Assembly: GCF_964355755.1 (NCBI RefSeq)
Contig: NC_092670.1
Location: 19,157,201 to 19,221,200, forward strand
Length of the DNA: 64,000 bases
Source: Antedon mediterranea
Taxonomy: Eukaryota > Echinodermata > Crinoidea > Comatulida > Antedonidae
Direction of reading: 5' to 3'
The position numbers and the translations under genes were made by a program. Numbering within the stretch: position 1 is the first letter of the stretch; every line of letters begins with the position of its first letter. Shown piece by piece: positions 15,001-40,623 of this stretch. Below the pieces are notes generated by a model that worked only from the letters and a program-made list of their open reading frames with translations, did no database searches and had not been told where the DNA came from.

Positions 15001-18000
15001 ACAAAGGTTAGTGTTTTTCAAATTGTCCTCGCCTTTTGTTCACCCTGTCTCACTGAAAACATATTTGTGTCTGTATCTGTGTATGTAGTATCATAGTTGT
15101 ATGATCTCAAACAATACAACTGGTTCAGCAGACCATGTTGTAGATTTTCTAACAGTGAATTTGTTTTTTAAAGGTGTTCTTCCGTGCTGGATGCCTTGGT
15201 GAACTTGAAGATATGCGTGACGAACGTCTTTCTAAGATTGTGTCCATGTTGCAATCTCAGTGCCGTGGATTCATCATGCGCAAAGAGTACAAAAAGATGC
15301 TGGATCAGAGGTATGAATGAAAATAGTTATTATGAACATCATTATTAGAACCATATCTCTATGTTCCTTATGCAATATCAAAATTGTCACTACTTACTCT
15401 TCTCATTCACATAATTATCTTTGCTGCTGTTATCATTCTTATCAGTTAGTATAAATGCCATCATCTATGTTATATTAGTGTTATTAACATCAATCAAACA
15501 ATCACATGTTAACAATCTATTTTCAATTATTGACAGAATTGGCCTTAGCACACTTCAGCGTAACATCCGTAAATACTTGATCCTGAGAAACTGGCACTGG
15601 TGGAGATTGTACACAAAGGTAAGGAACGATGCCATTGAAGGAACCATTGTCATGTTGAAGAGCACGTAATAAATAACTAGGATATCTTGTGAAAGCTTAT
15701 TACACTTTCTGTACAACTTTATACATCTCCACTGTATTGCAATTATGAGATATACAATACAACAATTTGTTAATTTTAGGTCAAGCCTCTGCTCAACGTT
15801 GCCCGTGCTGAGGATGAAATGAAGGCCAAAGAGGAAGAGTTACAGAAGTTTAAAGAAAAAGCAGAGAAAGAGGAGAAAGAAAGAATCGTTCTTGAAGAAA
15901 AGAACTCGCAACTGTTGAAAGAGAAGAACGAAATGATGCTCCGACTCCAAAATGTAAGATGCACTCATCAATTTTCTCTCTTTTAAAAAAAAAGATACTG
16001 ACACTCAAACTGCAAGCATGGGCTTTCCTCAGGATATTTCCATTTTATGTTGGTTCGTACTGACTTAAGTGTTTTGGTTTTATGTTGGGATAGGAACAAG
16101 AACAAGGAGGTGATTATGAAGAAACTATCAACAAGTTGAATGCTGTCAAGACTGCTCTAGAAACCAGAATGCAGGTAATTTTTATGGTCATTTTTAAATT
16201 GCAACATTGGTTGCAATCATGCTCATATTTATAATTTATAGGTTAGATTTTTAGTTTGTACGCTGACCATTCATATAGACACTCACACTTATGTTTTGTC
16301 TGTCAATTTACAAGAATTCTTAAGCAAGTTGAAACTAGTTATTGATAATCAATATTCAGATATTCAATTAAAACCATGTTTTTTTAGTTTGTGGCTGATG
16401 CTGAGCTGGTACTTCAAATCTTTTGCATTGTTGTAACACTCCATACTATTTCCATCAATGAGAGTTAGCGTTAAATTGTTTTTACCATGAATAATACAAC
16501 TCGTATTTCTCATTATTTCTTTTTAGGAAATGCAAGAGCGCATTGAAGAAGAAGAGGACAACAACGCAGACATCAGCGCCACCAAGCACAAGCTAGAGAA
16601 GGAATGCTCTGAGCTCAAGAAAGACATTGATGATCTTGAGATCACTTTGGCTAAGGTACTAATGAACTAATCCGCACTTGGTTCCTACCAACATGGGTAG
16701 CTCAGATGTAAAGCTCTGTCTACACTATCAAACTTTGTGACAAACAAATGTGCTCATTTATGGACATGATGATGTCATATCACTACCATATTTGGGCACA
16801 TAACACTTTTTTTGTCAAATTAGTTTGATAGTGTAGACAGAGCATAAGACGTTGAACATGTCACCAGTGAGCTGTCAGAGCTGTTTGTGTTAATTATCAA
16901 ACAGCTCTGAACTTCTCACTGATGTTTGTTCAGAGCTATTTGATTTGCTATCAAACGTTTGTGGTAGTTACAATACAATGATATAAACATAGTCAATTAC
17001 TAAATGTTTAAAACCATTGTATTGCAATCTACGTCAGAGTTTGTTGTTAGGAAACTTGGTGCTGCATGATTGTTTTGAGGTGCTTGGCAACTGCTTTTAA
17101 TAATGTCTACACAAAAAATATAAGTATTTGATTAATTTGGTTTTCAACAAGAAGAAATACTAAACTTCAAAGCATATACACAACTTAATGCTTTGTTTTA
17201 ACCAATGGCATTCAACCAATTAATATCATTACACATTTTGATGGAAATTTAATCACAATTTTTTCAAAGCTACAAGTATTTGAACGTTTTGTTTTACTAA
17301 GTGTGTAGTGTTTTTCTGCTTCTAACTATCTATCTGTCACTTGTTTCATCCTATTCTTTTATTTATTTATCTATCACTTTTTCTCTTGTATTCTAGTCTG
17401 TTATCTCCTCTAATTTCTGCTGCACTTACTCATTACCTCTTGCCTCAATTCTATCTGTGATTTTGTTATACTCTGCATAACAATATAAAACATTTTTTTA
17501 AATGTAAAAAAAAAATACACATTCAATCGAATTAGGACAGTACCTGGTTCTTCAAAATTTACAATTCTACAGAAAAAATTAAATCAAATAAAACTTCAAA
17601 GACATTTATAATTACAGTAAGCTTCAACAAAATTAGTTTTCATAAAATGAAGCTTGGAAGGGAACAGGTGTGTTATAAAGTATTTTGTAAAGCATCTTAT
17701 TTCAATTGGATTAGATTATTAGTATCACAGCAGAGTTTTCGCAGGACATTTGATTGATATGATTGCAGGGTATATAATTAAACACAACAGCAAATTAATA
17801 ACACTACTAAAGGACCTCCAATAAAATATAGAATTCTATATTTTGTTGATACCTTTTGTAATCAGCTTTTATTAATTTACACTTTTGTTGTTGTTGTTTT
17901 AGTAAAATGTATGATATCAATTTAATATAGATGACTACCACTTAATATTAAGAAAGTGGTCTATGTTATTATGTGTTATCTGTAAATCATTTACCTTAAA

Positions 18001-21000
18001 TTTTATATATTGTGATATAATACAGTAATAATGTTATCATGTCATTATACTCTATGTGGCACATTAAATGCATGTTTGTGATTGGTTGCTAATAAGGGTC
18101 AGTGAGCATGCTCGCTGAGGTTTTGAGACTTTGGTTTTAAGGTCGAGGATGAGAAGAAGGCCAGAGAGGCTCAAATCAAGACTTTGAATGAAGACTTAGC
18201 CGCTCAGGATGAGAGCATTGCTAAGCTGACCAAGGAGAAGCAAGGTCTCGATGAAAAGAACAAGGTAGGTTTGATTCATGAAATTTAAGATTTTTCCGGT
18301 AAAGAACAAGTTATAAGCATTATATTAGGACTTATGGTAAAATCTCATTGTCTGAACATTTTCTTTATTTTAATATCTTATTTATAAACCTATCTTTCCT
18401 TATGTAGAGAACCGAAGAAGCTCTCCAGGCTGAAGAAGACAAATGCAACCATCTTAACCACCTCAAAGCCAAATTGGAATCAAGCATTGATGAGGTACCT
18501 ACATATAATTTGTTGAAACTGTAACTACTGTAGGTAGTAAATCTTTGGCCTATATCCTATATGTTTATATTTTTATTCTAACCACACCAGGAAATACTGA
18601 ACATGTTATTGGTAACATGGAGGTTGACTGTCCTGAATAAGTTCTGCAAATACTAAGTTACATGCACAGTCGATCATGCTCATAGAAACCTTTGAATTAC
18701 TAGCTCAGTTACTTGGCCAATAGCCTTTTCCATTCTGTAGTGGATGAAGTATAAATTGAACATTTTGGGTAAAATAGAAAAATGAGTATATTTATCATGC
18801 TCTTCCTTTCTGATCACATGTCATCAATCCATTAAGCTCTGTCTACACTGTCAAACTAGTTTGACAAAAAAAAATGTGATGTGCCGTAATATATGGTAGT
18901 AAAATTCTTAAATAAAGAAGTGATATGGCCACATCACATTTTTTCACATAAAATTGGTTAGTGTAGACAGAGCTTTAGATAATATTTGTTGTACTGCTAC
19001 TAATACAAACTTTAATAACAACATTTTAAAATTTCTCTTTTTTTCAAATAGCTTGAGGATAATCTTGAGCATGAGAAGAAGGCCCGCGGTGATGTAGAGA
19101 AGGTTAAGCGTAAGCTTGAAGGAGACCTCAAGATGACTCAGGAAACAGTTGAAGAGCTTGAACGTGCAAAGTCTGGTCTTCAAGAAAACCTCAAAAAGTA
19201 AGTATTGCAGAAAATTTGAATTTTGTACAAAGAAAATAAAGTATACTTTTTAGTCTATGCGTATATTTAATTTTCTACATTTGGTGATGTATCTTCCTGC
19301 TCCTTTTAAGAGCCAGTTTACGACTTTATTTGTTGCACTTTGTGCATGTGCTTTCAATTAGTATGTATCATGTTATAGGTATTTATGTGTTACTAAGCAA
19401 TTGTACTATTTTTTATAAATAGGAGAGAATATGAGATCACACAATTGAACAGCCGACTTGAAGATGAGCAAGGTCTAGTTGCCCAACTCCAAAAGAAGAT
19501 CAAAGAGCTTCAGGTAGGATCATATTTACTGTTTTTGTTTTTGAAGATGTCAGTCAGAGCTACTCCATTCCTTTTTTGTATGTCTTTAGTCATCTGGTTT
19601 GGCTCTTGTTGCCTCAATATGCTGGTTATACTTTTAACACTTATAGGAGCTTTTTGCAGTGTCAATGAAAACTTGTTGTTGCTTGGATAAATTTATATGT
19701 CCATATATGGTCATAATTTGACATATATAGTATTAAAGATTCCATAATTGGTCGTTAATAGCTGTAAATCAAGAGTGTTTTCAGTTTATTGTATGGTAAT
19801 TTATGATACGTATGATTCCATTAGTGCTGTACTTCAAAAACATGTTCGTTATTGTACATATAACAAGGAATATAAAATACTTTAGAATAATTTATACTAC
19901 TTTATAGTTTAAGTGTAATTGTTGTATAGGTGTGTCAAGGTTGTTGAATATTTTCTCAATTTTTGAAATCAATGGTAGGAAAGGCCATGATATTTTGTAG
20001 ACATATGATTTATACTTTAACCATCTGCTGTAAAATGTGTAGACAAATACTTACATGTACAACCTGACAGTTGATTAGTTTAGTTATAAATAAATTAATT
20101 AAAAACTCAAATATGGAAAAATATTGCTTAACCTAATTTATCCATTATATATTATCAACATAATTATTATAATGTTGAACAATTTACCCCATGGCTGTTT
20201 TAATTCCTCCATACTTGCAATATGTCAATGAGATTGCCAGTTGCTAGCAAGCCTATATAAGGAAAACCAACACAGACCTTAGAGAGGTCTCACATCCCTA
20301 TGTCATCCAAGGAATTCCACTGACAAACAGTCAGTCCATCCCAGGGCATTCAGCAGAATTTTGTTTAATCATTAATTATTTTTAGATTATTAGGTAAACA
20401 GTTTGATTTATATCTGACATTGAAACTAAAATTATTTTTCAAGTATGAAACTTTAAATGTCAGTTGATTAACGCTGTAATGAATTATCCTGAACTGATTA
20501 AAATATAGCATATTAATTATTGAAAGCAATTTTTTATTTCAAAATTTGCTTGACTTTGTTTACTTATAATTATAAATATTAGGCATATTTTTAATTATTG
20601 ACATTTCTAAAATTAACTATAACTTAGAAACAAACTGGAAAAATCTTAAATCCGTCAGCACATTCTATTATATCTGTAATTAATTATTAATGTTATAAAT
20701 AATACATATTATTTTATTTTACAATTTTATTTTAATTTCAAAATTTGCTTGACTTTATTTACTTATAATAATAAATATTGGGCATATTTTTAAATATTGA
20801 AATTTCTAAAATTAAGAAAAACTTTAGAAACAAACTTGAAAAATTTAAATCTGTCAGCACATGCCTTTATATCTGTAATTAAAGAAAATTATCTAATTTG
20901 GGACCGACCACAAATATTCCCACTAACCACATTCCTTATCAATATCACCATACACTTGTCCATAGCAATTATCAATAGGTACCGTAAGTTATGCTTGTAT

Positions 21001-24000
21001 AAACCAATTAGTGGAATTGAATAACAGCATAACGGTATCACAGAAGTTATGACATCACAACTTCAGACTTCTCAAGTTACTCAATAACATAGTATTTCTA
21101 AATTTATCGTGCTAAGCATTGAAACGATAAGACCATTTTTGGATAGCTATTATGCCAGAATGGTTTACTTTGAGGCTCTATATTTACAAAAAGACATGTG
21201 TTGACGTGTAACTTAACGCTTGTGATTTGGGCGGACTATTAAAAATCTGGCATAAAATATTTGACAGTCTTGATTTGGTTTGTGGTGCTGATAGCGTCGA
21301 CATCGGTAGTGGTTAACTCACTGCTTGCATTTTTACAAACTCTTGCAACTATTTTATTTACTTTGGATTTCCTATTTGAAATTACTAATTGATTCAATTG
21401 AGGAATTACATTTTTAAAACTGGCTCACTCACGGATTAAAATGTATAGCGGTGGGGATGACTACTTTCTTAGGAGGCGACTGGTATAAGTAATATTTTTA
21501 TCTAACTTTCTTTTTATATAGTACTACTGTACTTAGATTTTGTATTACTAAAATTATTTTTGCATGAATTATGAAAATTTTACAAATTCGTCATCTCTTT
21601 CTGCTTTTGTTTACAAAATTAAATTTTGTAGATAATTGGTAATTAATTAGTGACTTATTAGTCTAATAATTAGTTATTCATTTATTTGTTATTCATCTAT
21701 TTACTCAATCATCACGTTAATATAATCAAACAGCTTTAAATTTAAGACACAATCTTAAAAACAAATTGAAACTGTTATTCCAATGAATTATTGTATTTAA
21801 TGCTAGGTTCTGTGTCATCAATGTGTTTAATTAAGAGAATCAAGCATAATATATTTAATCTATGACTACTTATTATCTTATGACATAATTTTATCACCGA
21901 CATTCTTGTCATGTTTGTGACTGCATTTCCTCAATTTAGGATGTTTTTAAAGGCGACAGTTATGTTTATTTCTCAATGTCTTGTCTCATACAGACATTCC
22001 TTTCTCAGCTGTCTAACAGTACTGAAATATTTTTAGGTGTTTTTTCTTAACCATCTCCCATCCAACAAATTAGGTTTGTCATTAGAGTTTATTAGCTAAA
22101 AATAAATATGGTACTATACTATTCTATTTAGTTTGTGATTGATAAACAATAATTTTTTATTTACTAGCTAAACTACCCTATTTACCATACTGTACACAGT
22201 ACAATACCTTTATTTCCATCAGTTCACTCAAGCATGATAAACTAGCCAATCAGATTAGTGATTACTTAATATTGCCAAATAACCAATCAGAGAACAGGGA
22301 AGTTACAAACTTTCTGACCAATCAAAGATTGATATACTATATAGATATTTTGTATAGGTTGTTACATTTTTTAATCAGCTGATCATGAAAAGGTTAATGG
22401 CCCAATTGATATAGATGCCAACTTAATTTATGAATGGGTTATAGAATGGAATGGTTGACACACATTTTACTACTATTTGGAAATCAGTTGTGTGGTTGTC
22501 AAAGTCTGTTCTTTGGCATACAACCAGAATGTAGGCTTACTAGCTCTAAATGTATTCTTTGGCAAAACATCAATTGTCTGCCTTAGTAGTCCTAATTGTA
22601 TTCATTAAAAAACTTTAAAAGCATGAGATAACTAGATTTAAAAATTGGAAAATTATATAGCAAAGTTGAGCAGAGAAAAGTTTATGAACAAATTTTATTT
22701 ACTTTAGCCATTTACTGTAGAAAGGTAAATTAATAGAATCATCCCCTACATTAATACCATAAGTAAAATGAAAATAGTTACTTAAATTACATGTCAGATA
22801 TCAGCACCATGTCTATTAAGTGTTTATGTTATTTGAAGAATGTTGAAATATATTTTTGTTTAATAAGCAAATATGAGCCCAATATTTCTGACTCATCTGG
22901 AAGATGCTAGATTAACTCAAACCAACTCCATTTATGAACCCTACAACGCATACTGACCACATTGGGCAATCCTTGAGATATGCATACAGCCATTATTTTT
23001 ACCTGCATGAGATATGCAACAAATCTTTAAACTATTTGTGACCGGTTTTTTTTTCTTACTGTAGACACCAGTTATAGAAATAAGTACATTTTCTATAGGC
23101 CTTTAGTTTATCTTTAAATGTGTCCAGTCAAGCATTCCAATGGTGTTTAGTAACATATTATAAATTAAATCAATTAAGTATCTTAATTAGTTGACTATTA
23201 AGTGTCAAGTGTAAATACCTGAGAATTAGTAAAGTATAACTGTTATAGTTTGAGTGTAGGCCTAAGTTATTTTTAGATATTAACGATAGTTATACATAGT
23301 TTGAATGGTAACTATAATTAAGATTTTCTATGGTAGACAGATGTATAGAAAAAAGAATGGCCTGTAATTTGTTAGGTAACATTACTGTCAAATAAAGTTC
23401 AAGTCAGGGGTAAAATTCAATTGGAATGATTAACAACATATCTGTCTGTGCTACCATCTTTAGAATAATAAGGCAGTCAGCGACGAGTTCAACCTATGCA
23501 TGCCAGGATAGGGTCAGTCCTAGCCATCTTAGGTACATGCATTCCAATACCAAATAAGCATTGCATAGATGACACCATCAGTTTCAGTCAATCAACCAAA
23601 TAGATACAGAATTAACACGATTGGCCGATTGCCTTGATGACATCATCATCACCACACTTTTAGCCTATCAATCAATTATCCAGAATTGGTGGAGTGTGTG
23701 GTAGAAGTCCATTAATACAGTTGGAGATTTACGACAGGGGGCGGGCCAGCATGTGACCAGACTTAATGAATGCTTATACAGCATAGTCTCTTCAGTCAGT
23801 TAGCTCAGTGCAATCTCCTGAAGTGGTACGTACCACTGTCTCTTCTAAGTGCAATATTATTGGATAGAGGGTGGCACCAGTCTTTTCTGATACGCTCTTC
23901 AGCTTAGACCAAATATTCTCCTGGACTATTACTCTTGGACTACAAAGCTAGGCCCTGTTCTACTTGGAATACTCACTGTGAATTTAAATACCCAAAATGG

Positions 24001-27000
24001 AAAGTAGCAGTATGATAAAATCATCTAAAACAACAAAGAAGATGGTGTCCTCAACTTCAGGGACACAATCCTTGGATTATTCTAAAAATCTGGACACGCA
24101 TGTCAACTACCAAAAACTAAGTGCCAAGTCAAGGAAGCTCATTCGTCGTAGCTATGAGATGGGCGATTGTTTTGTTGGAGCAAAGGAACTATACCAAGTA
24201 GGCAACTATATTGATTCCGCATGCATTTACTACTGATGTTGTAAGTAGAAGTAAGAAAGACTAGGCTAGGCCCAAGCTTGTTCTGATAGATCTGAGTGCA
24301 CTAGGGTAAAAATCAAGTTGTGGGTCTACAAAATAGAACCAGGTATAGATCGTAATGAATATATTTCATAACGACTAAAATGCAGGTTATCCAGAATAGG
24401 ACAGGTTTATCTAAAATGCTAGTTTGAAAATCCAGATAGAAAAGAAATTTTTTTTTTTTTGATCCAATAGATCTAAAGTACTAAAAATGGTACAACAACA
24501 TTTCGCAAACTTTCAGTCAGTTTGCTTTCTCATGTAGACTGTTTAATCCAGATAATTATCATCTAATCATCAAGAAATGTCCTGTTAAATATTCAGCAAC
24601 TGTTCAAGCTTCCATATCAAAACTATGATTTTAATTAAATAATATCTTGTACTGGTTGCATGTATATCTTTATATTGAATATTCTATACCAACAGTTATA
24701 GAAACTATTAGATACAAAGGGATGAACTTGTGTGACCTATTTCATTACCCCCCTTTCTGTTGACCTTCTTGTCTCCCTGCCACTGTCTCAACCAGTAGTT
24801 CTATTTTGATATTGACCTGAAGGTCAGAATAATTAATGTATAATTTGATTGATATGTGATACTCCCTTCAACACCTGCTCTGAGAATTTCTACTTGCCAA
24901 TGATACAAATTCTTCTCCTATTATGGATGGTTGGGAGACATCACAATGGTCACATAGCAATACATTTTCATTTAGAATGTGCTGTATCTATATCTTTGGT
25001 GTGTTAGCTGTAGGGTATATCTAATACATAGATATTGGGCTAAAGAAAGTAGCCTGAAGGTAAAAGAAGCTAGGATAAATAAAGCTGAGAACACTCATGG
25101 GAAAAAATGTTTAGATGAATATCAGATCAGTTAACCAGTCGAAAATTCAATTAATATAAATACAAACATTCTATTAGCAAACTTATTCATCCTCTACCTG
25201 GAAATCTGAATAATTTCACACAGTGTTAGGATAATTAAGCTTAAGTGAACTAATTGTCACAAAATGTCATTATTATGAATGACTTACTTACACATTTGTT
25301 TTTGTAAATAAATATTGTTATTATTTTTTTGTTTTTTTTTGCTTGGGTTTTTAATCAATTAAATACCACATTTAATGTTACTATTAAATTTGTCAGAATT
25401 GCAAATAATTCTTTTACATCCTATTTTTATTTATTTTTTTTTGGTATTAAATGTACTGTAAGTTTAATTGTTGAGATTCTTTAAATTATGTATTGTTTTA
25501 TTTATGTAGTGTTTTATTATTATTTAGATTAAATTTAGAAGTAAAAAATTATCAATTTAAACTTAGTTTTGAAGTAAGTTTCATGTACGATTAATATTTC
25601 AAATGAAAGTTTATTGTACTAATGTAATCTAATCATTTTACTTTAGTAACTAATTACTCTGTGTCTAGAAAAAAAATTAAGGATTTTATCAATCAATTAC
25701 AATAATAGTTGCTGCAGCAAATTGTAAATACATACACACAAACCGGGACACAAACTGTATATTCAAGTATTTAATCATTGTAATTATTATATATAATTAA
25801 TCACATTAGTTGATTATTACATTGTAACTAAAGTTTTGTTTATTTTTTAGGCTCGCATTGAAGAATTAGAAGAAGAGTTGGATGCAGAAAGACAAGCTCG
25901 TACCAAGGTATGTTATCAAAAATCTTTTTAGAAAAAGTTGTATTAAAATACATTATGTCAAAGTGGAAAAAAGGTATATTCCTTCAAAGTCAAATAATAA
26001 CTAATTGGTAATAAAGAATGTTATGTTCTAATTACATCTGACTCTTCTGTCAATTGGACTTTCTGGAACTGCTATTAGACTGTCAAATCAATTTATTTTC
26101 ATTACTAATAAATCCTATCCAGGAATGCCTGCCCTCTCCAGGGATCTATTTACTTATTGGACTCTACTCTGGTATACTATAAAGAATGTTCGCATTCCAA
26201 CCATACTATTCATTTTTCTATTACACTGTAGTATGCAGTGTATTGTAGTTTGTATTGAATATTATATACTAGGTAATTACTTCATTATATTACAGAGCAA
26301 TAGTACAATTTATTTGTAATATACTTATATATAATAAAATGAAAATAATATACTGTAATATATTTATACACTGTTATATTATAAATAGGTCGAGAAACAG
26401 CGAACAGAGCTGAGCCATGAATTGGAAGACCTCAGTGAGCGTCTTGAAGAGCAGGGAGGTGCCACCGCTGTCCAAATTGACTTGAACAAGAAGCGTGAGT
26501 CCGAGATCTCCAAGATGAAGCGTGAACTTGAGGATGCACACATGCAAAGTGAAGCCACATCCCAGGCTCTGCGCAAGAAACATCAAGATGCAGTAGCCGA
26601 GCTGAGTGAGCAGGTAGATGCCCTCAACCGTACTAAATCCAAGTAAGTAACTTTGCGAAAAATATATAAATTATGGTTTATTATATGCATTGTACCCGAA
26701 AAAATAAAGATGAATAAAATGAAACTTTTAAAAAACAATTTTTTAGTTTTAATAAAGTTATTCACTTTTAGGAACAAGTTTAAAACAAAATTCTCACAAG
26801 AATCAGACAGAATAAATGGTTAAATTTAACCAAAAGCCCAGATAATGGGCTTTAAAATTCACAATTGTTCTTTAAATTACTAAATTAAATAAAGTTTAGA
26901 GTGTTGACTTATCAAGAACCGTGCACATGTTTGTTCTATACACATCATGAATGAGTTTCTTCTATTTACCATTCAGGATTGACAAAGAGCGCCAGAATCT

Positions 27001-30000
27001 TAAGATGGATATTGATGACCTCGTCACAACCGTAGAAGGCCTCCAGAAATCCAAGAACAACGCAGAGAAATTATCTCACCAACTTGAGAGCCAGTTGAAC
27101 GAGGCTAATGGCCGCGCTGATGATCTCTCCCGTTCCATTGCTGAGCTGAATAACCACAAGCAGCGAATGACAAACGAAAACGCTGATCTTCTCCGTCAAC
27201 TTGAAGAGAGCGAGAACGGCCTTAGCCACATGGGTAAACAAAAGAGCCAGTTGGGATCACAAATTGATGAGCTTAGACGACAACTTGATGAAGAGTCAAG
27301 AGTAAGTTTTCTTTTTGGAGTTGACAATTAATACCATATACAACAATTGTAATATATAAATTTAAGTATATTCAAAGCATGCTCGTTGAGCTTGTGCACT
27401 CTTTGTGTTCATAATCAGTGTACCATGTCCCGCATACCTGGCTCAGCCTATATATTGTGCCAGTTCTGCGGTACATTTCATTTCGAAACCTGAGCTGCAC
27501 TGACGAGATCTAATAAAATCGAAACAGTACTGTCTGCAGATTGGATAAATTTAAGTATATATTTTTATTAAGAATTACTTTTGTAAGGCAATAATATGAA
27601 TAATTTTTTGTTTTGCAGGCTAAGTCACAATGCATGTCCCAAATCAAGAATCTCAATGCTGAATGCGATCAGCTCCGTGACCAGGCTGAAGAGGAAGCAG
27701 AGGGCCGTGCAGAGGTTCAACGTCTTCTTGGAAAAGCCAACGCTGAGATCCAAGCCATGCGTGCTAAATATGAAGGAGATCACATTGCTCGCGCTGAGGA
27801 ACTTGAAGAAGCCAGAAGGAGATTGCAGATCAAACTGACTGAACTTGAAGACCAGCTTCAAAATGCTCTTTCCAAGAACTCCACACTTGAGAAAACTAAA
27901 CAACGTCTCTCTGCTGAGATTGAGGATCTTCTCTTGGAAGTTGAGAGAGTATGTAACTTTTTATATACTATATAAATCTTATCTTTATCACTATCTTTTT
28001 CAAAATTGAAAATTGTATTAATTAAATATATTTATTTTAGGCCAACAGCATGGTCAGTGCTCTTGAGAAGAAGCAGAAGAAATTCGACCAATTCCAGGCC
28101 GAATGGAAGGCAAAGGTAGATGAAGTAACTGTCGAGCTTGAGATTTCTCAGAAGGAGGCTCGCTCATACTCTGCAGAACTCTTTAAATTCAAAGGATTCT
28201 ATGAGGAAACACTTGAAAGCATTGAAACACTCAAGCGCGAGAACAAGAACTTGTCGGGTAAGCTTCTAGCTTTCAACTGGTTTGCATGGGCATTACTAAG
28301 GGGTTCTTTTAAAAATTTGCGTAAAACTCTTACCAATCCTTTGTATTCAAGTTAAGTTCAATACATTCGACTAATAAATGCAATGCATTTGACTTAAGTT
28401 AAAATTTATTGCACAAAATAAAAGCATAATGAAATAATTATTTATCTGCAGATGAAATCCACGACCTTACTGATCAGCTCGGAGAAGGTGGAAAGAGCAT
28501 TCATGAGCTTGACAAAATCCGCCGCCGACTTGAGATGGAAAAGGAAGAACTCCAAACCACCATCGATGAGGTTGAATCTCAACTTGAACAAGAAGAGAGC
28601 AAGGTTGTCCGCTACCAACTTGAGATCACCCAAGTCAAAGCTGACATTGAGCGCCGTTTGTCAGAAAAGGATGAAGAGTTTGAAGTTGTCAGGTTAGCAA
28701 TTCATTTTACTTGAAAACTCTTACTTTAAAATTTGTTAAATTATTTTCTTTAGTTTAAAACTATTTTATTTTATATATCTACAATTCAATACTATTATGT
28801 TGAAACAGGAAGAGCCATGCCCGTGAGATCGAATCATTGACTGCAACTCTTGAATCTGAGACTCGTCAACGCAATGAGGCCATGAAACTGAAGAAGAAAC
28901 TTGAATCAGAGGTTAATGAATTAGAGATCCAACTTGACCACACTAACAAGAACCTTGCTGAAGCACTTAAGAACAACAAGAGACTCCAAGGATCACTCAA
29001 GGTATCTATTTATGCTGATAATCTAATCTTTTCCTAAGCTATATGTACGTAGCCATGTGATTCTAACATACTATCCATAGTAAGTCAGTCATAGTCAAAG
29101 AAGATGGACAACTATGATGATGATGATGATTCATTTATACATACTTGGTTACATGATATAAGAGAGAACAGCGGGTTATCAATTATTGTTATTTCTCACT
29201 TTTATTTAATTTATGTTTTGTTTTATGTAAAAGGGTCCTGCAAAAACAGACTTGTAAACTTCTTTATGCAGGATCATTGCCATCAATTATATACTGAATA
29301 TACTGTAATTATAAACGATGACTAAATAAATCTGAATTGAATTGTTATTTTTAGGATCTCCAAGCCCAATTAGATGATGAGATTCGTGCACGCGACGAGC
29401 TCCGTGATCAATACCAACTGACTGAGCGCAGATGCAACATGCTCTCCACTGAACTGGAAGAGCTCCGCAGTCAATTGGAGCAATCTGAGAGAATGCGCCG
29501 ATCTGCAGAGGGCGAGCTATCTGATGCTAACGACCGCAACGGAGAGCTTGGAGCTCAGAACCACTCCCTCGCTGGCCAAAAGAGACGGTTGGAGCAAGAA
29601 TTGCTTAGTGCACGTGCAGAGGCTGATGAGGCTTCTGCTGAGGCTAGAGCCAATGATGATAGAGCCAAGAAAGCAGTTAGTGATGTAAGTAGTGTATCGA
29701 TTACTCTAATAATTCCATCGTTTCTTACTGCAAATTTCCCTGTACTCTCCTAATTAAAATTGTACAATAGAAATAAGGTGTTTAATCCTCATCTTTTTTT
29801 ATTGGTTACACACTGCTTACTGTCTGGTGTGGAAATCATTGTTGTTAAACAGTTACATTAGCCCTGACATAATGCTCTTTAAAAACATTATTTTAACAAT
29901 CGTTTTTATAGGCCACACGCCTTGCAGAAGAGCTCCGCCATGAACAAGATCAATATGCAGTTAGTGAGAAGAACCGCAAGGTGTTGGAGGTAACTGTTAA

Positions 30001-33000
30001 GGAGTTGCAAGTCCGTATTGAGGAAGCCGAAGCCCTTGGAATCAAGGCTGCTAGACGCCAAATGCAGAAACTTGAAGTCAGGGTATGTTACCTAGAAATA
30101 TATTTTTTATGAATAAATCTTTTACAGGTTAAACAATAGACTATTATTTCTCATTGTAACGATTGTTTAAATGTTTAAATACTCACTTGTTCTTTTACAG
30201 ATACGTGAATTGGAGCAAGAACTTGATGGAGAACAACGCCGCCGTTGTGATATTGACAAAAACATGCGCAAGGGAGAACGCCGCATCAAGGAATTGAACA
30301 TGATCATTGAAGATGAACACAAAGTCCAACAACACATGCAAGAGACTGTTGAAAAATGGACAATGAAGTGTAAGACACTGAAGAAGCAAACTGAGGAACT
30401 TGTAAGTTTAACATCATTAAGCTCTGTCTACACTATCACACTAATGTGATGTGTCAAAATATGGTAGTGATATACCAAAATATGTTAGTGATATGACATC
30501 ATCATATCCATATATGGGCACATCACATTAAATTTTGATAGTGTAGGCAGAGCCTTAAGTTGTTTAGACTTGGGAACTCTAGAGTAACATGTACGCTGGG
30601 GGTGAAAAGAACGTCTACGTCTGTGTCTGCCAGCTCCATATATTGATATATTTCTTTCCTCAACCATGATAGGATATTGCAATATTCCTTCAAATAATAT
30701 TACTGTAATTTCAAAGGACAATCTTCTGTACACCAAAGAAGTTATTTACTAATGTTGTTTTTTTCTTATATTCTTGCAGGAAGAGCATGCCAACGGCAAC
30801 TTGTCTAAATTCAAGCGTGCCCAGACTGAGCTGGAAGAAGCTGAAGAACGTGCTGACATCGCCGAAAGTGCCCTTCAGAAGCTCCGTGCAAGACATCGCA
30901 GTGCCATGACACAGCGCACCACTACCACGGTAGAGTCAGACGCTGATTCTGAATCTGAAACCGAAGATTTCGATTTTGAATCAGAATATCACCTCATAAC
31001 CACCTCTGTTTCACGTGACCGCCGCTTGCAACGCATGGCTGTAAACACTCGCGATAATCTCAGTTTGTCGACCAAAGGCATTTTATCACGATTAGACTTA
31101 AAAGTCGATAATGATCTTCTTAGTAGTATCGAATCTAAATTAGCAGCAAGCCCCACAAGGCCTGTTATAAATACTTTAAAAAGTCTTTCATTAGACGACC
31201 GAGCAGGAAAATTGGACACTAGTATATCAGTGACTAAGTCATCAGAAACTGATGACGTATCAACAGCTACTGATGAAGCTCCAAAATTGCCCCCTACGGA
31301 AAGCATTCCACAAGTAGAAACATCTGAAGTTAAACAAGAGGCAGTTGCCTCATCCACTGAACAGTCTGAAAAAACATCAGATGTTTTACCGTCAGAATCT
31401 TCTGACCCTGCCAAATAAATGTCAATTTCATTTATTTATACAAAATTTTCCAACCTTTAAATCAATGAACATTTTATGTATTTTGTTTCTAAATTTTGGT
31501 TTGAATTGAAATTTTTTACAATTCGATGTATAAATTGAGATTGTCTGTTTTCAGTTCGACATGCGCGCACAACCTTTGCGTTATCACTGCTTTTTTATTT
31601 CTCTTACACCAACAAAATAGTGCATGATTAACAATTTAGGCCCAGTTATATCATTTTCATATCTTAATATATTAATTTTCATTATTCATTACTAACTTCA
31701 GCTTAAAAAGAGCACCTTTTTTTCACTATTCTAACATTCCCATCTCTTTGTGTGATTAATATTATTTTAGTTTCAACCTTTTTAAAAATTACCTTTTTAC
31801 CACCAAAAACATATTTATACCTCTTTTTATACATTTATACAAAAATATTAGCACTCACTTATATCAACAGAAAAGAACAGTTGAGACAATTTTATTGGGA
31901 GAAAATTATGAATGGTTACCAGGCCAAATCTTTAATTAAAGTTATTTCTTTTTTTTTACAAAAACGAATCAATTAATCAATCAATCATTTCTGTAGATTT
32001 TTCTGTAATGTAAAAAAAACCCAAAAAATCAAATCTATCTGTAAGATAGTCTGCTATTTATTTGTGCATTAGTTAGCTTGGTCTGGTATTGGCATGGTGT
32101 GGAAACTCATTGATTTGCGGTGATCGCTCCAGCGCACGATCCCCTTACACAATCCCCTTCAATGCAAAATGATTGAGGTATATTATGACGTGAGATTCTG
32201 TACATAAAAGAATTTAAGCTGTTGTAGTCAAAAGAAAAGAGAAACAAATTTGAACAAATATTGGTCTCTTTTCAGTTGATATTAGTTTTTTAAAAAACCA
32301 TTTGCCGTGGTTACATATATTCTTTGCCCGTCCTTATCCTCCAACTCGCTATGATTTTGAAGTTATGGATCTAATTTTGTACGCACTTTTTAACACATAA
32401 CTTTAACATCCTACGATGTTGGCAGATCTTGATGGCCATGTTTGTGGTGTCTTGGCAGTTATAGTAAGTAGAAAAAAAATCCATTGTGACAATGTCACAT
32501 GAACTGCCTTAAGTGTTCATGCAAATTTATGTAAATTAGTTTATTCTGCAACTGGTTGCATATGTTCTCAAATTCATCCTTTTTGTTCTGTTCTTATCTT
32601 TGTATACAGAAATAGGTTACGTCCTGGCTTTAGAAATTTCAAGCGTCCTCCCTACAACTATCTCTTTTTAAAAATAGGCTCTAGTGGTCTTTCTAATTCT
32701 CCTCACTCTAATACCTCTGATGTGTAATATCAAAGTGGCTCTAATTTAAAGTTGCAATACTTCTTTAAATATTAAAATCCAAATTCTTAGGAATAATAAG
32801 AATTAATGAATTAATGTAAAAGATTATTCATTTTAAAATAGAAAAGCAACATTAGTCATTTTAAACATTAGTCTTTCTAAACTCTTTGGCTTTTTTTGGT
32901 TTGCCAAATCTTTTGTTGTCAATTAATTTACTTAATGTTGTTTTTTCCGTTGCTCACTTTCTACCATTCTGAAAGTCATAAATGAATAATCTCCTAGTCT

Positions 33001-35441
33001 CTATTGTACAGACTTCCAATAGTTTCTCCTAGTCTCTAGTGTACAGACTTCCAACAGTTTTAGGTCATTGGATGAGAGATAAAGCTGGATTTTATCCTCA
33101 AATAGATTAAGAGACTCTTTGGAGTAATAAGACAAGATTTTCAAGCGACAAGATTTTCAAACTAAAAATTTATCTATCTTGCCTGCAAAATGCATTTATT
33201 AATTTAGGTGATTGGTAAAAGTTTGAAATTAAAATGACTAAAAACTGTTATTTTAGAAAATTGGACATAAACTTAGGAAGTAGATAATAGACATTTTTCC
33301 AATTTAAACGTCCATTTATAATGGTGGTCTCATAGCCGCATTATGGTGCTCTTTATTATTCAAATTGTTAATGTTTGTTGTGCCCAGTTAAAACTGTAAA
33401 TAAAATTGATTTGATGTGCTTGGAAGTTCTGTCTGTTTGTGCTCATTTTTTGTCGGCCAATCAAAGCAGAGGATGACAGAAACAGACAAGAATCCGGCCA
33501 TCTTGTCTTCAACAACTGCAATTCCAAAATTTTACAAAAAGCTGTTACAGGAAAGAAAGCGATAAAGTATAATGTTGCGTTATATGCATATGTTTATTTA
33601 AGCTTTTTTAAGGATTACCTGTTAGGAAGTGGAACTTATTCAATCCGGTATTCCTCTGTATATTTTTAGAAAAAAATTGCCAAATAATCTTTTATAATAT
33701 ATCAATTTTAAACAATTTATAATTTTTCTAATTTGAGACTATCAACAAATTAATTTAAAGAAAGATAATATATTTGTCCCATCTTACAAGTGAATCTAGT
33801 AACTTGTCTAAACTAAACGTAAAATATAACTTCTCTAACTGCTTACTATGAATAACATTTTAAATATCAGATGAGAATAAGCCACTATATTAGTATTCCT
33901 AAATAGTTTAACATAAATAATTATATCAGTAGAAAAACGAGCTGATAATGTTAGACACGATGATGTTACATTTTGAGATGTGGTGAGAACTACTAAAATA
34001 CTAGATAATTGCAGTGAACAAAATGAAAACAATTTGGATTGACAATTAAGTTTCTAAATAGACCTTTTCTGTTCCTACATCATATAATAAAAAAGCCCTG
34101 CTATAATATTGCTTAGTGGAAAGGAGACTTCAACTTGAGCAAAAATTATTATCTTATTATTACCTACCTTTTCTATTTTAACCTCTTTTCAAAGAGGTCA
34201 TTTTCAAAGAATGATGGGATAGTCAACAACTGACACAATGACATTGTTGGGTAGATGCTCAAGCAATGTTTATGATTAAATTACTCCCATCTCTTTAGTG
34301 CCTCACTTTTTTCAAAATCTTGAATCCACCACACCTATTTTGTTATTTTTCTCTTTTACCGAAGAAGTAGATCGATAATTGCATGGTGTCAAAAGTGGCC
34401 TGTTCCATCATTTCATTGCTTATTCATACCCTCTATCATTAACCAATCAAATCTTGTGTTGTAAACTGGTAAGCTATTCTACTGTCTGCATCCATTTTGT
34501 TACTGTTTTCCTTCTACAGAAAACTGGTAATACCACCATCACCACCACCACCAAATCCAGCAAAAAGTGAACTCCTGAAAAATGATCCGACTTCATTTTA
34601 GTTTTTTTCTGGTAAATGTTTACCCATTTCTTCTTAGCATGCTGCTTGTTCTATCTTTCTGTATGTTTTTGTTTGTATCTGTTCATTCTGTCTTCATTTA
34701 ATATGGTTCTTGTACCAAGAGGTCTGCTGATTGCATTCCAAACTTTACTTTCATTTTTGCAATATATATCTTCTACTTTAAAAAAAATCTAATAGACTGT
34801 AGATACAACTTTTTAAATGTAAACTTTTTGTAATTCTCAAAATTTTAACTTTTTTTAAAGTAATGCATTTTTTTTAAATTAAATTTTTACTCATTTAAAA
34901 GTATTTCTTTCCAATATAGTTACCGTACGACAAGAGTTTTAAAAACTTTATTTCAATTTTTCTAAACCTAAATTATTTATTTATTATCTTTGATACAATG
35001 ATCCAAAAGAAATATTTTAAAAACTATTTTTCTAAATGTGTTTGCAGTGATTAGTTTAGTATAGTATTAGCATTTAGTTACATAGGGAAAAATTAAGAAA
35101 ATTTATGACCTAAAATGAAACAAAAAAGTTAATATAGTTTACTATTTCCACAATAAAGACAATAACTTATTTAAGTACAGCAATTCGCTTAATACTGTTT
35201 ACTGATTAAATCCAACCGCATGTTTTCAAGCACATAAATTACTGGAAATAAATTTCAAATTGAACCCTGACACCATGTCAAAGGTTGCAACACTTTTGAG
35301 TGTTAATTATAATTATGTTTTTGGTTACAGATTAGTCCAAGCTATTCGTCATTTAGATCTTATTCAACAAGTAGTAGTGATCCTCACGATCAAATATCAA
35401 ACGGAAACGATTACAAACATGATGAATTCGAAGAAGAATAG
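1..35441 (+). CDS. MHC: Muscle (sarcomeric-type) myosin heavy chain, 5' partial, alternatively spliced
   Basis: Actin-based motor of the thick filament. Translated exons give, in order: switch I ([16 protein letters not shown]), switch II (LDIAGFE, 6352-6501), relay helix (6965-7135), actin-binding loop 2, SH1/SH2 region ([17 protein letters not shown], 14481-14686), converter (14886-15006), two IQ motifs (15174-15618), the lever-to-rod junction (YTKVKPLL) and a long heptad coiled-coil rod to 30929. The P-loop and N-terminal domain lie upstream of the window. The short-tail product from the window is about 1,734 aa; with ~200 missing residues it matches the ~1,940 aa usual for muscle myosin II. 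Constitutive motor exons: 4426-4489, 4699-4797, 5002-5105, 5493-5631, 5903-6021, 6352-6501, 6965-7135, 7472-7660, 8007-8133, 14481-14686, 14886-15006, 15174-15310, 15537-15618. Alternative exons and tails are listed separately. Family assignment is certain; exact isoform structure is inference without RNA data. Confidence 0.97.
15..2345 (+). other. Intron upstream of the switch-I exons
   Basis: Very AT-rich. It contains a poly-C run near 383-398 and one foldback MITE copy (1341-1474). I see no exon-like segment and no further switch-I copy. Confidence 0.6.
1341..1474. mobile_element. Foldback MITE, copy 1
   Basis: Ends AGCTCTGTCTACACTATC and its reverse complement, with an inner GATGTGCC/GGCACATC pair. 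About 134 bp, in a myosin intron. Reference copy for the family. Confidence 0.92.
2346..2447 (+). CDS. MHC: Myosin alternative switch-I exon A (34 codons)
   Basis: AG acceptor at 2344-2345 and GTAAGT donor at 2448. It encodes the end of loop 1 and the helix before switch I, ending [12 protein letters not shown], then joins phase 0 to GKFIRIHF (4426). It starts [15 protein letters not shown], four residues longer than its neighbour. The tandem exon B encodes the same protein segment in the same phase, so only one of the two can be used per mRNA. Confidence 0.85.
2532..2621 (+). CDS. MHC: Myosin alternative switch-I exon B (30 codons)
   Basis: AG acceptor at 2530-2531 and GTAAGT donor at 2622. 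It encodes [16 protein letters not shown] and ends [12 protein letters not shown], close to the textbook muscle-myosin sequence. It is a diverged duplicate of exon A, only 84 bp downstream. Both are open and both have consensus donors, so neither looks like a pseudo-exon. Confidence 0.87.
2622..4425 (+). other. Intron after the switch-I exons
   Basis: AT-rich, no exon recognised. Around 3724-3775 lies a decayed tRNA-like segment ending in a B-box-like GGTTCAAATCT, probably a SINE relic. A similar relic (GGTGGTTAAC...TTACCAATC) lies at 6090-6120 in a later myosin intron. Confidence 0.45.
7705..7850. mobile_element. Foldback MITE, copy 2
   Basis: Both terminal arms and the inner GATGTGC...GGCACATCAC pair are present; centre contains CCATATATGG. 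Myosin intron. Confidence 0.9.
8222..8322. mobile_element. Foldback MITE, copy 3 (short)
   Basis: Both outer arms with a shortened centre, ~100 bp, between myosin exon 8007-8133 and the loop-2 cassettes. Confidence 0.88.
8721..8783 (+). CDS. MHC: Candidate myosin loop-2 cassette exon L1 (63 nt)
   Basis: Bounded by AG (8719-8720) and GTAGTA (8784). It is phase 1 in and phase 1 out, open, and a multiple of three. The product contains [15 protein letters not shown] and would insert between PTG (exon 8007-8133) and the Gly-rich loop-2 exons. It is homologous in protein and bases to segment 9056-9112, which argues for an exon duplication rather than chance. The acceptor has a poor pyrimidine tract. 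Usage is unproven. Confidence 0.55.
9056..9112 (+). CDS. MHC: Candidate myosin loop-2 cassette exon L2 (57 nt)
   Basis: Bounded by CACAG (ending 9055) and GTAGTT (9113). It is phase 1 in and phase 1 out, and open. It encodes [16 protein letters not shown], sharing the KVAKYxFxG-like core with the cassette at 8721-8783. Insertion here would enlarge the actin-binding surface loop. Confidence 0.6.
9653..9805. mobile_element. Foldback element, second family
   Basis: The left part (GATGCAATGCAAGTACATAA, continuing into AACGCAACGTAAG) reads as an imperfect inverted copy of the right part, which contains CGCTTGCGTTGCGTTTACC and GTGTTGCGTCC. This gives a ~150-bp palindromic, MITE-like unit inside a myosin intron. 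It is distinct from the abundant AGCTCTGTC family. Confidence 0.5.
10282..10525. repeat. Interspersed tandem repeat, about 8 units
   Basis: About eight copies of a core similar to ATAAAACCCAGTAGGGCCTA, separated by short variable AT spacers. It lies in the myosin loop-2 intron just upstream of the 9-nt microexon candidate. No coding potential was seen. Confidence 0.8.
10805..10813 (+). CDS. MHC: Candidate 9-nt microexon in myosin loop 2
   Basis: A long T-rich tract and CAACAG acceptor, then GAAAACAAA, then a perfect GTAAGT donor. The 9 nt fit the phase-1 joint of loop 2: with neighbours they add Gly-Lys-Gln-Ser (before exon 11626) or Gly-Lys-Gln-Arg (before exon 11801). Lysine-bearing inserts are typical of loop 2. 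The splice sites are the main evidence; usage is unproven. Confidence 0.5.
11626..11681 (+). CDS. MHC: Myosin alternative loop-2 exon A
   Basis: CATAG acceptor and GTACGG donor, entering in phase 1 and leaving in phase 0. It encodes [18 protein letters not shown], the canonical loop-2 end and strut before [11 protein letters not shown] (14481). It pairs with the next exon as a mutually exclusive choice. Confidence 0.88.
11801..11850 (+). CDS. MHC: Myosin alternative loop-2 exon B
   Basis: TTCACAG acceptor and a weaker GTTCGC donor, with phases identical to exon A. It encodes [16 protein letters not shown], a diverged copy of the same segment. If the donor is not used, in-frame stops follow after about eight codons, so it must be spliced to be functional. 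The G-S-F-Q-T-V stretch is replaced by A-I-K-T-I, so the strut differs as well as the loop charge. Confidence 0.78.
11851..14480 (+). other. Long intron between loop 2 and the SH1 exon
   Basis: AT-rich, with many A/T homopolymers. One open 81-bp segment near 13556-13636 was examined and rejected. No other coding or repeat structure was recognised. Confidence 0.5.
15780..30929 (+). CDS. MHC: Myosin rod (S2 and LMM) exons
   Basis: Coiled-coil rod exons, all in continuous frame: 15780-15953, 16094-16174, 16527-16655, 18142-18264, 18408-18494, 19052-19197, 19423-19513, 25851-25907, 26389-26642, 26977-27301, 27619-27948, 28041-28257, 28452-28692, 28809-29001, 29355-29684, 29912-30082, 30201-30401 and 30780-30929. 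The encoded sequence shows uninterrupted heptads rich in E/K/L/Q typical of striated myosin tails. Intron 16656-18141 holds a MITE and AT-rich filler. The intron 19514-25850 is exceptional in length and content. Confidence 0.95.
16712..16843. mobile_element. Foldback MITE, copy 4
   Basis: Complete arms; inner GATGATGTCATATCACTACC shared with copies in ZZEF1. Myosin rod intron. Confidence 0.9.
18835..18974. mobile_element. Foldback MITE, copy 5
   Basis: Complete arms (AGCTCTGTCTACACTGTC), flanked by TTA at both sides. Myosin rod intron, just before exon 19052. Confidence 0.9.
20537..20885. repeat. Tandem duplication, two ~200-bp units
   Basis: Two diverged copies start TTCAAAATTTGCTTGACTTT near 20537 and 20737 and run through TCTGTAATTAA. 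The segment is intronic and AT-rich, with no coding content. Confidence 0.75.
23730..23996 (+). promoter_or_regulatory. Candidate internal promoter and 5' leader of a headless rod transcript
   Basis: Relatively GC-rich island in an AT-rich intron: a GC box (GGGGGCGGGCC, 23737-23747), an E-box CATGTG (about 23751), a TATA-like CTTATACA (about 23772) and an initiator-like TCAGTCAG (about 23793), about 200 bp before the ATG at 23997. These are consensus resemblances only. Confidence 0.4.
23997..24197 (+). CDS. Candidate unique first exon of a headless myosin-rod protein
   Basis: Opens with AAAATGG (good Kozak context) and encodes 67 residues beginning [15 protein letters not shown], rich in Ser/Thr and Lys/Arg, ending AKELYQ. 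A GTAGGC donor at 24198 resembles the GTAGGA donor of the previous rod exon (19513), and both leave phase 0. The next exon (25851) starts phase 0 with [10 protein letters not shown], so splicing gives a continuous [14 protein letters not shown] coiled coil. If unspliced, the frame stops at 24236. The product would be about 906 aa with the short tail. Drosophila myosin rod protein and molluscan catchin/myorod arise the same way, from an internal promoter or alternative first exon of the myosin gene. No homology to their unique domains is claimed. Confidence 0.6.
30420..30554. mobile_element. Foldback MITE, copy 6
   Basis: Arms present, inner TGGTAGTGATAT duplicated. In the last rod intron, 18 bp after a donor site. 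Confidence 0.9.
30930..31418 (+). CDS. MHC: Long read-through C-terminal tail of myosin
   Basis: Exon 30780 stays open past an internal GTAGAG donor (after Arg-Thr-Thr-Thr-Thr) for 162 more codons to TAA at 31416-31418. The tail begins [20 protein letters not shown] and is acidic and Ser/Thr-rich, with no heptads; it looks disordered. It would take the heavy chain well beyond the usual ~1,940 aa. Codon use and the lack of stops over 489 nt argue that it is coding. Whether it is the main form or a retained-intron isoform cannot be told from DNA. Confidence 0.7.
31419..33420 (+). other. Probable 3' UTR of the long-tail transcript
   Basis: AT-rich, no genes. It has a 35-bp tandem duplication (CTCCTAGTCTCTA-type, 32991-33060). 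It ends in a good AATAAA followed by GT-rich sequence. Confidence 0.5.
33399..33404 (+). terminator. Poly(A) signal candidate, long-tail form
   Basis: AATAAA followed within 15-50 bases by a T/G-rich stretch (TTGATTTGATGTGCTTGG), the classical cleavage-site arrangement. Confidence 0.45.
34520..34570 (+). CDS. MHC: Alternative terminal myosin exon, short tail 2
   Basis: Strong TTCTACAG acceptor, phase 0 from the donor at 30930. It encodes [16 protein letters not shown] then TGA. Joined to the preceding RTTTT it gives a short basic/Thr-rich non-helical tailpiece, the usual form in muscle myosins. It brings total length to the family norm. An AATAAA follows at 35152-35157. Confidence 0.65.
   Translation, partial: KTGNTTITTTTKSSKK
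35331..35441 (+). CDS. MHC: Alternative terminal myosin exon, short tail 3
   Basis: TTGGTTACAG acceptor, phase 0. It encodes 36 residues beginning [20 protein letters not shown] and ending DEFEEE then TAG. Ser-rich then acidic, unlike tail 2. An AATAAA lies 14 bases beyond the stop (35455-35460). Support comes from phase, acceptor and the poly(A) signal; there is no homology support. Confidence 0.5.
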   Translation: MSPSYSSFRSYSTSSSDPHDQISNGNDYKHDEFEEE

Positions 35442-37733
35442 GAAGAGGAAAGAGAAATAAATAATTTAAAACAAATAATTATAATAATAAACAATGCAGA
35501 TCCCACAAAAAATTAAAAAAAAAATATCCTTTAATAATAATTCGGAATATTTCTGCAGTCCCCGACAGCAGGATATGAACTCTGACCTCCGTACCTTCTC
35601 TGACTAACTGTAGAAGGTGGACAAGAGTGTCTTAACTGTTAATAACAATTATATAATAAATAAGTGTAAATTAATCCAAATAGTTTATTTAAAATTATAT
35701 AGTTTATAGAATATTTATAGCACAATATTTAAGCAATATGACATTTTTTTTTTGAGTGATTGGTATTTAAGCAATAACCTGGTGATTGATTGCATGATTG
35801 CCAGGATATTTTTTTTATTGCATTCATCCGTCCAGTGCCTTACCAGAAAAAAGAAAAGAAAACTTTCTTGTAATTCTGAAGAAAGCCGTGTTTTAGTTAT
35901 ATAACGGCGCATGTATTACGTCCTATGCAACATTTTGGTCACTTATGACAAAAGTAAATAAGTTAAAACTTGTAAAGTAAATTTTTATTATAATAACCGA
36001 ATGCTGGCTAACACGACACGGTCCACCTTATAGCATAGTGAGACCATTATGGAGGAGAGATAGAGGGAAGAATATCTATCACTTGTTCTACGAACAAGAT
36101 GACATTTGATATCAAAAAATATATTAGATGCTTGACTGCTATTATTTTAATTTTTGTCTATTGTAACTTTTGTGTTGATTGGTAAATAGATAAATTTCCT
36201 TGATGGAATTTTTCCTGTAGTATGGGTTTTTCTTTTAGTTAGGGGCGACCACCAGTATATGGTAAAGTGGAGATTGCCCTCTATAGGACTGAACCTGCTG
36301 TTATGTCTAACCATGTAAACGCTATTGGTTTATGCATCACAATAAATTTAGAATATAGAAAGCACCAGATAAAAAAAGCTGTTTTGTCTCCAACATTGTT
36401 TTATTCATGGTCTGTATTCGACTGAAAAAATATAATTGTGAGAAAAACAGTAAAGAAAATCAAGGTTTGGTGGTTGGTTGGTGATGGAAGACCTCTACTG
36501 TACATTAGTAGTGATTCAATAAAATTAGATTCAAAGTTACAATCTGTTTTTGTCTCTTGCAACAAACATGAATACACAATTAAAGTATGCAAATTTATGT
36601 TTTATGAATGATGCCATGAACTGGAATTTTGGAAAAAATCTACCATTTCACGGTATTGAAAACAAATTAAATACACACTTGTACCACTTGTGTGGAAAAT
36701 ATATAAATTAATTTTCAAACAACCCAGTAATGTCATTCCTGATAAAGACTCCATGTCAGGTAGACGACCATTTTGAATTTAAATAATAGAAGTATGGATT
36801 TATCTTAAAATTAACTACCGACTACTTCAAGATTAATTCTATTAATGTCTGAATTTGATTCTAAACCAAGTATGGATTTACCTTGGAACAACAATACAAA
36901 AATACAAAATTTTATTTATCATTATGTTTTTCCGAGACAAATTAAGTTTGCATAAGATTACAAAACAAATATGCATAGTTTGCAATTGTGTTTATATTCT
37001 GTGTGTTTGCATGCAAACATTATCTATTATTTATCTTTTATTTTGGTTTAATTTTTGGATGAAAATAGAACTAGTGTACAGTAGAACAAATTGGATGTAC
37101 AGAGTAGAGTTAGTAATGATTGTATGCTGAAGAACTTCTCGGATTTGAATGAAGAAAATAGAATCAACAATTGGCATATCTGCAACTTCTTTTGGTTAGA
37201 CAGCGATACACCTTAATTGTTATTTGTAAAAAGAAATACATTTTGGCACACATGGAATGTCATACCTGAACTTAAGCTGCTGGAATATCGAAATTCCTGC
37301 TGGTGGTGCTCGTAAAGGAATTACAACATAAAAAAAAATTAAGTAAAACAACATCATAAACCAATATACTAATATTAACATTTTATTATACACCATTAAC
37401 TTTATATTACAGTACTTTATCATTTTACAGAAATTCCAACAAGTCTCAAAAAGAAGGCATTTAGAATGAGAATACCATAAATAAATTGGTAACCAACTTA
37501 AAGAAGGCCTGATAAAAATCCTGTTTATTCATTTCATTACCAAAACATGCAATTCCAGTTAAAATTATTGGAAGATCTTAATACTTCCAACTGAGAATAG
37601 TTTGATAGCAATAGTTTCACTGGTGGGCAAAATAGACAGACATGTTTGAATGCTTACACCATGACTGTACCCATCTAACATCATTACAACGAGTTTTTTT
37701 ATATTTTCCACTGCATAGAATTCTCATTCATCC
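35442..37733. other. Intergenic region between myosin and CHMP6 3' ends
   Basis: AT-rich. At 35560-35645 a minus-strand tRNA-like SINE relic is possible (reverse strand reads GTTAAGACACT...GTTCATATCC). Nothing else recognised. Confidence 0.45.
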
Positions 37734-40070: not shown

Positions 40071-40623
40071 GATGTATTGGTGGTAGGTGGTCCAAAGTTA
40101 GTAGTTCTGCATACAACGTTTAATATTACATTATTTATAATAGCAAAACAATGAATTTGTAAACTATTTTATCAAAGAATAATTATTGAATTCAGTAAAT
40201 CTTATTGAGTAGGCTTAGTGACGAATAAATAACGAAAAGGGATTCTTTATGTAACCGAGATACAATTTTTGGAGTAAGTAGTTTTCTAGGCCTAGAATGC
40301 ATAGAGGCAGTCCTGCCAAGAGTCCAGCACCACGGCGACCTAGAGCTTATGCATGGAATTAGGCAAGGTGGCCTAGCCTAAAAATATATGAATATTTAAT
40401 CAATAAAATGTACCTAAATATTAATTCGTTATGTAAAAATATATCTAGAACATTTCAGTCATATAATATTAAAATTCAAAGCAATACAAACCACAAAATA
40501 GACAAACAAGTAAACACTCACTGACTGAATGAAGAAATGTTGACACCACCCAAATATTGGTGGCGCTGTCTTAATTACACTCGGGGTTTCCCCTTTTACA
40601 TTACGTCATTCTGACGCAACAAG
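40071..40623. promoter_or_regulatory. Shared divergent promoter region of CHMP6 and GFER
   Basis: The two start codons face away from each other across 553 bp. A CRE/ATF-like TTACGTCA sits at 40601-40608, 16 bp before the GFER ATG, followed by TGACGCAA. CTAGGCCTAG-type motifs occur near 40287 and 40370. There is no clear TATA box in either direction. Confidence 0.5.

Follow-up and report, generated by a model that had tools for sequence, protein, structure and literature searches.

Headless myosin rods of molluscs and insects

Catchin, or myorod, of molluscs was reportedly described by Yamada et al. in 2000, and the myosin rod protein (MRP) of Drosophila is said to have been described by Standiford et al. 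in 1997. In the portions of the literature available for this comparison, the rod part of catchin corresponds to the last 830 residues of molluscan myosin (PMC12040844; PMC5963113), while its head of 156 residues has a phosphorylated Thr141, followed by 15 more residues (PMC12040844), and is described as non-helical (PMC5963113). Fly MRP begins with the first exon past the motor and light-chain domains and carries a head that shows no conservation even when flies are compared with mosquitoes, according to the accessible sections of a survey of myosin heavy chain (Mhc) genes, in which headless rods are also stated to have arisen with different starts (PMC3912159).

Here we describe a candidate crinoid locus of this kind. 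The region from about 23740 to 24197 of the window (the whole 64,000-nucleotide stretch of DNA that was analysed) is in our judgment probably an alternative promoter together with a catchin-like first exon in an echinoderm muscle Mhc. A headless rod made from an internal exon had been proposed in a preliminary description of this DNA, and it is still the reading best supported by the anatomy of the sequence, although the size given for the protein did not hold and the evidence points to the catchin/myorod rather than the MRP type. No description of a headless Mhc rod in echinoderms was found in a literature search that was judged by titles and had most subscription journals outside its scope, and the Mhc survey of three sea urchin genomes and an acorn worm mentions no rod isoform in its accessible part (PMC3912159). 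If our reading is true, headless thick-filament proteins extend to the deuterostomes, two distant phyla employ one and the same intron alike, and a protein of poorly understood role gains a new system.

A candidate first exon in an intron of the muscle Mhc

The muscle Mhc spans the window on the + strand, with motor exons that start before the window and end at about 15600 (borders approximate) and rod exons from 15780 to a stop codon at 31416-31418. One muscle-type copy was seen; outside the exons of the window, a rod query hit only C1:24.77 Mb, with 35% identity. The intron that hosts the candidate (19514 to 25850, + strand) is 6,337 bp long and the largest among the introns that separate the listed coding exons of the window. 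It is preceded by a rod exon specific to full-length myosin (19423 to 19513, + strand; start read by hand), which ends in KIKELQ before the donor GTAGGA, and it is followed, after the acceptor TTAG, by a phase-0 rod exon (25851 to 25907, + strand), the first that would be shared by both products. Nine more shared rod exons lie between 26389 and 30401 on the same strand in the assembled reading frame (26389-26642, 26977-27301, 27619-27948, 28041-28257, 28452-28692, 28809-29001, 29355-29684, 29912-30082, and 30201-30401), and the last shared exon (30780 to 31418, + strand), which includes the stop codon, encodes a long C-terminal tail.

In the motor region of the same gene, two similar tandem exons (2343-2449 and 2532-2622; borders approximate) encode the same motor segment and are probably mutually exclusive. 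A single such alternative-exon cluster, cluster-8, has been reported in sea urchins and an acorn worm, as far as the accessible part of the survey goes (PMC3912159).

The candidate alternative first coding exon (23997 to 24197, + strand) comprises 67 codons, from an ATG at 23997-23999 in the context CCCAAAATGG, with A at -3 and G at +4, to a final CAA at 24195-24197. It is followed by the donor GTAGGC (24198 to 24203, + strand) in phase 0, whose PWM score of 8.6 compares with 7.9-12.5 across 13 donors of the muscle Mhc. Phase 0 at the donor (24198) and at the acceptor in front of 25851 gives an in-frame join, and the claimed ATG with a good Kozak context, 67 codons, and a GTAGGC donor fitting the exon at 25851 are thus borne out; at the level of sequence, an alternative first exon lies inside the muscle Mhc in frame with the rod. 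Because an in-frame TAA (23985-23987) shuts the frame 9 bases 5' of the ATG, the candidate can only be a first exon. The same stop codon, with no AG between it and the ATG, rules out an internal coding exon of the full-length myosin. A repeat or transposon origin was ruled out by a DNA search of the genome, in which the stretch was found to be single-copy.

The main rival reading, which we consider unlikely, is that the frame is open by chance, in a part of this long intron that is richer in G+C and may be an enhancer, and does not serve as an exon at all. The candidate is the longest of the 10 ATG-initiated open reading frames (ORFs) of at least 50 codons in the 23.3 kb of sense-strand intron within the window, and a donor-like GT (score at least 5) after 50 codons occurs in it alone among those 10, which speaks against chance. 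So do simulations: a frame of at least 67 codons with an equally good donor arose in 3 of 400 order-2 simulated introns and in 4 of 2,000 simulations that used the local composition, and in 0 of 400 and 0 of 2,000 when the Kozak context and a 200-base ATG-free leader were added. In the actual sequence ATG is absent from 23773 to 23996 (about 224 bases), where about four would be expected at the intron density of 0.0189 per base. The Ser/Thr/Lys-rich character noted earlier was confirmed, since the summed fraction of these residues in the head (0.40) is above that of all 54 intronic fragments (maximum 0.38); the hydrophobic fraction (0.24) is below their minimum (0.26), so that the composition lies beyond the range of translated intron.

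The codon statistics lean the other way. With 6.3 bits the candidate is weakly coding and is equalled or surpassed by 7 of 71 non-coding ORFs (a set that takes in 31430-42200, possibly with unannotated exons). Per 67 codons, the 11 rod exons score 21-51, and a different frame of this stretch scores higher than the candidate (14.1) despite 5 stops inside; the comparisons with non-coding ORFs and with the other frame would suit a chance frame. Training of the codon model drew on 29 of the 30 kinase loci (L033, which contains stops, was excluded), and the low score of a Ser/Thr/Lys-rich head may well reflect this training, but codon usage lends the exon little support. It also counts for chance that many introns were open to inspection when the candidate was picked, and against it that the candidate appears to sit at the catchin junction, as judged with assumed scallop numbers (see below).

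Upstream of the ATG, a G+C-richer patch (23375 to 23996, + strand) presumably holds the promoter and the 5' leader. The G+C content is 0.38-0.44 over 23375-24374, versus 0.17-0.37 in the remaining 250-base windows of the intron. In a scan of 23400-23996 for 11 motifs, uncorrected for multiple testing, GGGCGG was matched once, at 23739 (0.03 expected), TCAGTY five times (0.8 expected), and CCAAT five times (1.6 expected), with initiator-like TCAGTC and TCAGTT at 23792 and 23796; E-boxes were not in excess (6 versus 7.6 expected), and MEF2, CArG, CASSTG, and TATA motifs were absent from this interval. The patch is promoter-like in its local rise in G+C, its GGGCGG, and its initiator-like sites, but not in TATA, MEF2, or CArG motifs, and promoter function is only suggested. 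The absence of muscle-factor consensus sites from 23400-23996 is also what a chance frame would lead one to expect.

The G+C patch and the initiator-like sites fit any promoter, and they would equally serve some other transcript: the frame without splicing, which extends 12 codons beyond the donor to give 79 codons and a stop at 24234, a first exon that is non-coding, or a nested transcript with a different splice partner. We regard such a transcript as improbable. The nearest AATAAA or ATTAAA past that stop is about 400 bases away, at 24634, and the phase-0 donor and the good start codon would have to be a coincidence.

A second myosin gene offers a control. A myosin-tail family search of the genome gave 27 matches, all of them from two type II myosin genes except a weak one at C5:26.73 Mb. 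The second of these genes, at C1:24.77 Mb, encodes the matching rod segment within a single exon and so lacks an intron there; no ATG-initiated ORF of at least 25 codons was found in its next intron (about 915 bp; borders approximate).

Position of the junction and likeness to catchin

The motif VKPLL is located at residue 836 of human, 837 of tarantula, and 835 of fly muscle myosin, and ARIEEL, at which the shared rod begins, at 1113, 1114, and 1112, respectively (counted from alignments), so that the two are 277 residues apart in all three myosins alike. For scallop myosin, in which we take the proline to be Pro835 and the length to be 1,938 residues, the same count yields a rod of 829 residues from ARIEEL, a value that depends on these assumed numbers, versus the 830 residues of catchin. 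The neighbouring introns, 19 residues later and 30 residues earlier, would yield about 810 and about 859 residues. Judging from these counts, the candidate most likely occupies the intron that carries the catchin exon.

The locus had been likened to both catchin and MRP; its position argues for the catchin/myorod type rather than the fly MRP type. The candidate resembles Drosophila MRP as a motorless rod with an internal start within Mhc and a short unique head, but it starts about 277 rod residues further on, and an MRP-type start was ruled out by the junction lying 277 residues after VKPLL according to the three reference myosins. A third relevant case is Lottia Mhc8, a tail-only myosin that begins exactly at the rod part of catchin according to the accessible part of the survey (PMC3912159). 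Mhc8, however, is a gene of its own and lacks the catchin head exon, whereas in the crinoid one gene would give both products.

Like the catchin/myorod exon, the candidate would serve the muscle Mhc as an alternative first exon spliced to the distal rod, and the junction is apparently the same by a residue count that uses partly assumed numbers. The candidate Ser52 and the catchin Thr141 are both 15 residues before the junction, a correspondence noticed post hoc, and the candidate head is probably outside the coiled coil, as is the head of catchin. The differences are that the exon comes from an echinoderm and not from a mollusc, that the tail is about 160 residues longer than that of human myosin, and that the head has 67 residues and not 156, for which reason we call it catchin-like and do not file it as a member of catchin. 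The likeness is one of position and spacing.

The favoured reading includes the case of a real headless-rod exon that is independent of molluscan catchin, and we hold this to be a serious possibility, if short of an even one. It would agree with the unequal length of the heads, with the different starts of headless rods elsewhere, and with a fly MRP head that is unconserved in mosquitoes, the last two points coming from the accessible sections of one source (PMC3912159); a junction equal by residue count and a basic-flanked Ser/Thr at equal spacing argue against it. About as likely, in our view, is the alternative of common descent, in which a single Mhc intron of the bilaterian ancestor would already have held a promoter and a head exon whose phosphorylatable basic site keeps a fixed spacing from the rod, and echinoderms would have retained them, so that catchin would not be a molluscan invention. 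Should a common origin be true, the muscle myosin gene would have had headless myosin as its second product since ancient times, which would be a striking result.

Predicted product and other elements of the window

The exon at 25851 and the ten later exons encode 985 residues free of stops. Together with the 67 of the head, and once the terminal exon is included, these make a predicted headless protein of 1,052 residues, not the roughly 906 given in the preliminary description. From the same junction human MYH7 has 823 residues as against these 985, the C-terminal tail of the crinoid muscle myosin being longer by about 160; acidic residues, Ser, and Thr are abundant in the long tail encoded by exon 30780-31418.

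The full-length and headless products had been thought to run from KELQ and KELYQ into the same coiled coil. The endings are indeed so (KIKELQ before GTAGGA at 19513), but the shared run is doubtful: KELYQ is one residue longer, which puts Tyr and not Leu on the core heptad position (by hand), and the head probably does not continue the rod coiled coil. With Y and K, then F and G, on the heptad positions preceding the junction (by hand), a coiled coil probably forms only from the rod exon onward. Ser52 (codon 24150 to 24152), within KLIRRSYEM and with 15 residues of the head after it, is the sole one of its 18 Ser/Thr residues with at least two basic residues among the preceding three, and may be phosphorylated, to judge from this context. 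An AlphaFold prediction of the isolated head gave a mean pLDDT of 65, with residues 1-31 free of helix and strand and with helices at 32-35 and 43-54, the latter around Ser52; we give this model no weight because it was built from a single sequence.

No Pfam family was found for the head, and a pilin, the lone PDB row obtained for it, has an E value of 2.4 and was taken as chance. In viral contigs, none of 17 pattern-matching stretches was confirmed as a relative of the head, and none of 12 as a relative of the rod exon at 26389. A head without relatives in Pfam, PDB, and viral contigs would be in keeping with the unlikely case of a chance frame.

For the favoured catchin-like exon, we infer a promoter, a transcript, a protein, and a role as follows. 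Transcription would start near 23794, and the 67-codon exon would be spliced to the rod exon at 25851, as the splice sites and their phase indicate. Behind the head, the 1,052-residue product would retain the distal S2, the light meromyosin part of the rod, and the extended C-terminal tail, and would be without the motor, the light-chain sites, and the first 277 or so residues of the rod. Through its identical rod, the headless protein would co-assemble with myosin and display a short, basic, flexible, and phosphorylatable head on the surface of the thick filament, like molluscan catchin/myorod. By analogy with myorod, as treated in the accessible parts of two sources, the basic head might touch actin or myosin, and phosphorylation might alter this contact and hence the holding tension or the ATPase (PMC4410989; PMC12040844). 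The arm muscle of crinoids is reported to be striated in the available text of one study (PMC5888912), and a role in catch is therefore not implied; the suggested tie to catch-type muscle is speculation.

Seven short MITE-like elements with inverted ends AGTGTAGACAGAGC were seen (1342-1473, 8222-8321, 16713-16843, 18836-18973, 30421-30553, 56156-56314, and 63002-63077), five of them in myosin introns or in the upstream part of the gene. The window contains 16 matches to the AGTGTAGACAGAGC end, including single ends at 58500 and 60867, where 0.02 would be expected. A tandem array with a 19-base unit occupies 47526-48231, with 37 copies and 100% matches. Elsewhere in the genome a Bindin match was obtained at 107 bits, and a bindin core exon at locus L005 (G000:C1:15552879-15553076), read by eye as LRHLRHHSDLLANI, adjoins an acidic stretch. 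The match marks the animal as an echinoderm, whereas a COX1 search gave 0 matches. Of the 354.4 Mb in 18 contigs, about 98% falls in eleven: ten of 22-41 Mb, with 312.6 Mb in total, and C2, which exceeds 36.2 Mb. Crinoids have eleven chromosomes and the other echinoderm classes about 19-23, which makes a crinoid probable. Bindin is an echinoderm gene, and this exon, if in a crinoid, bears on the age of bindin among echinoderms.
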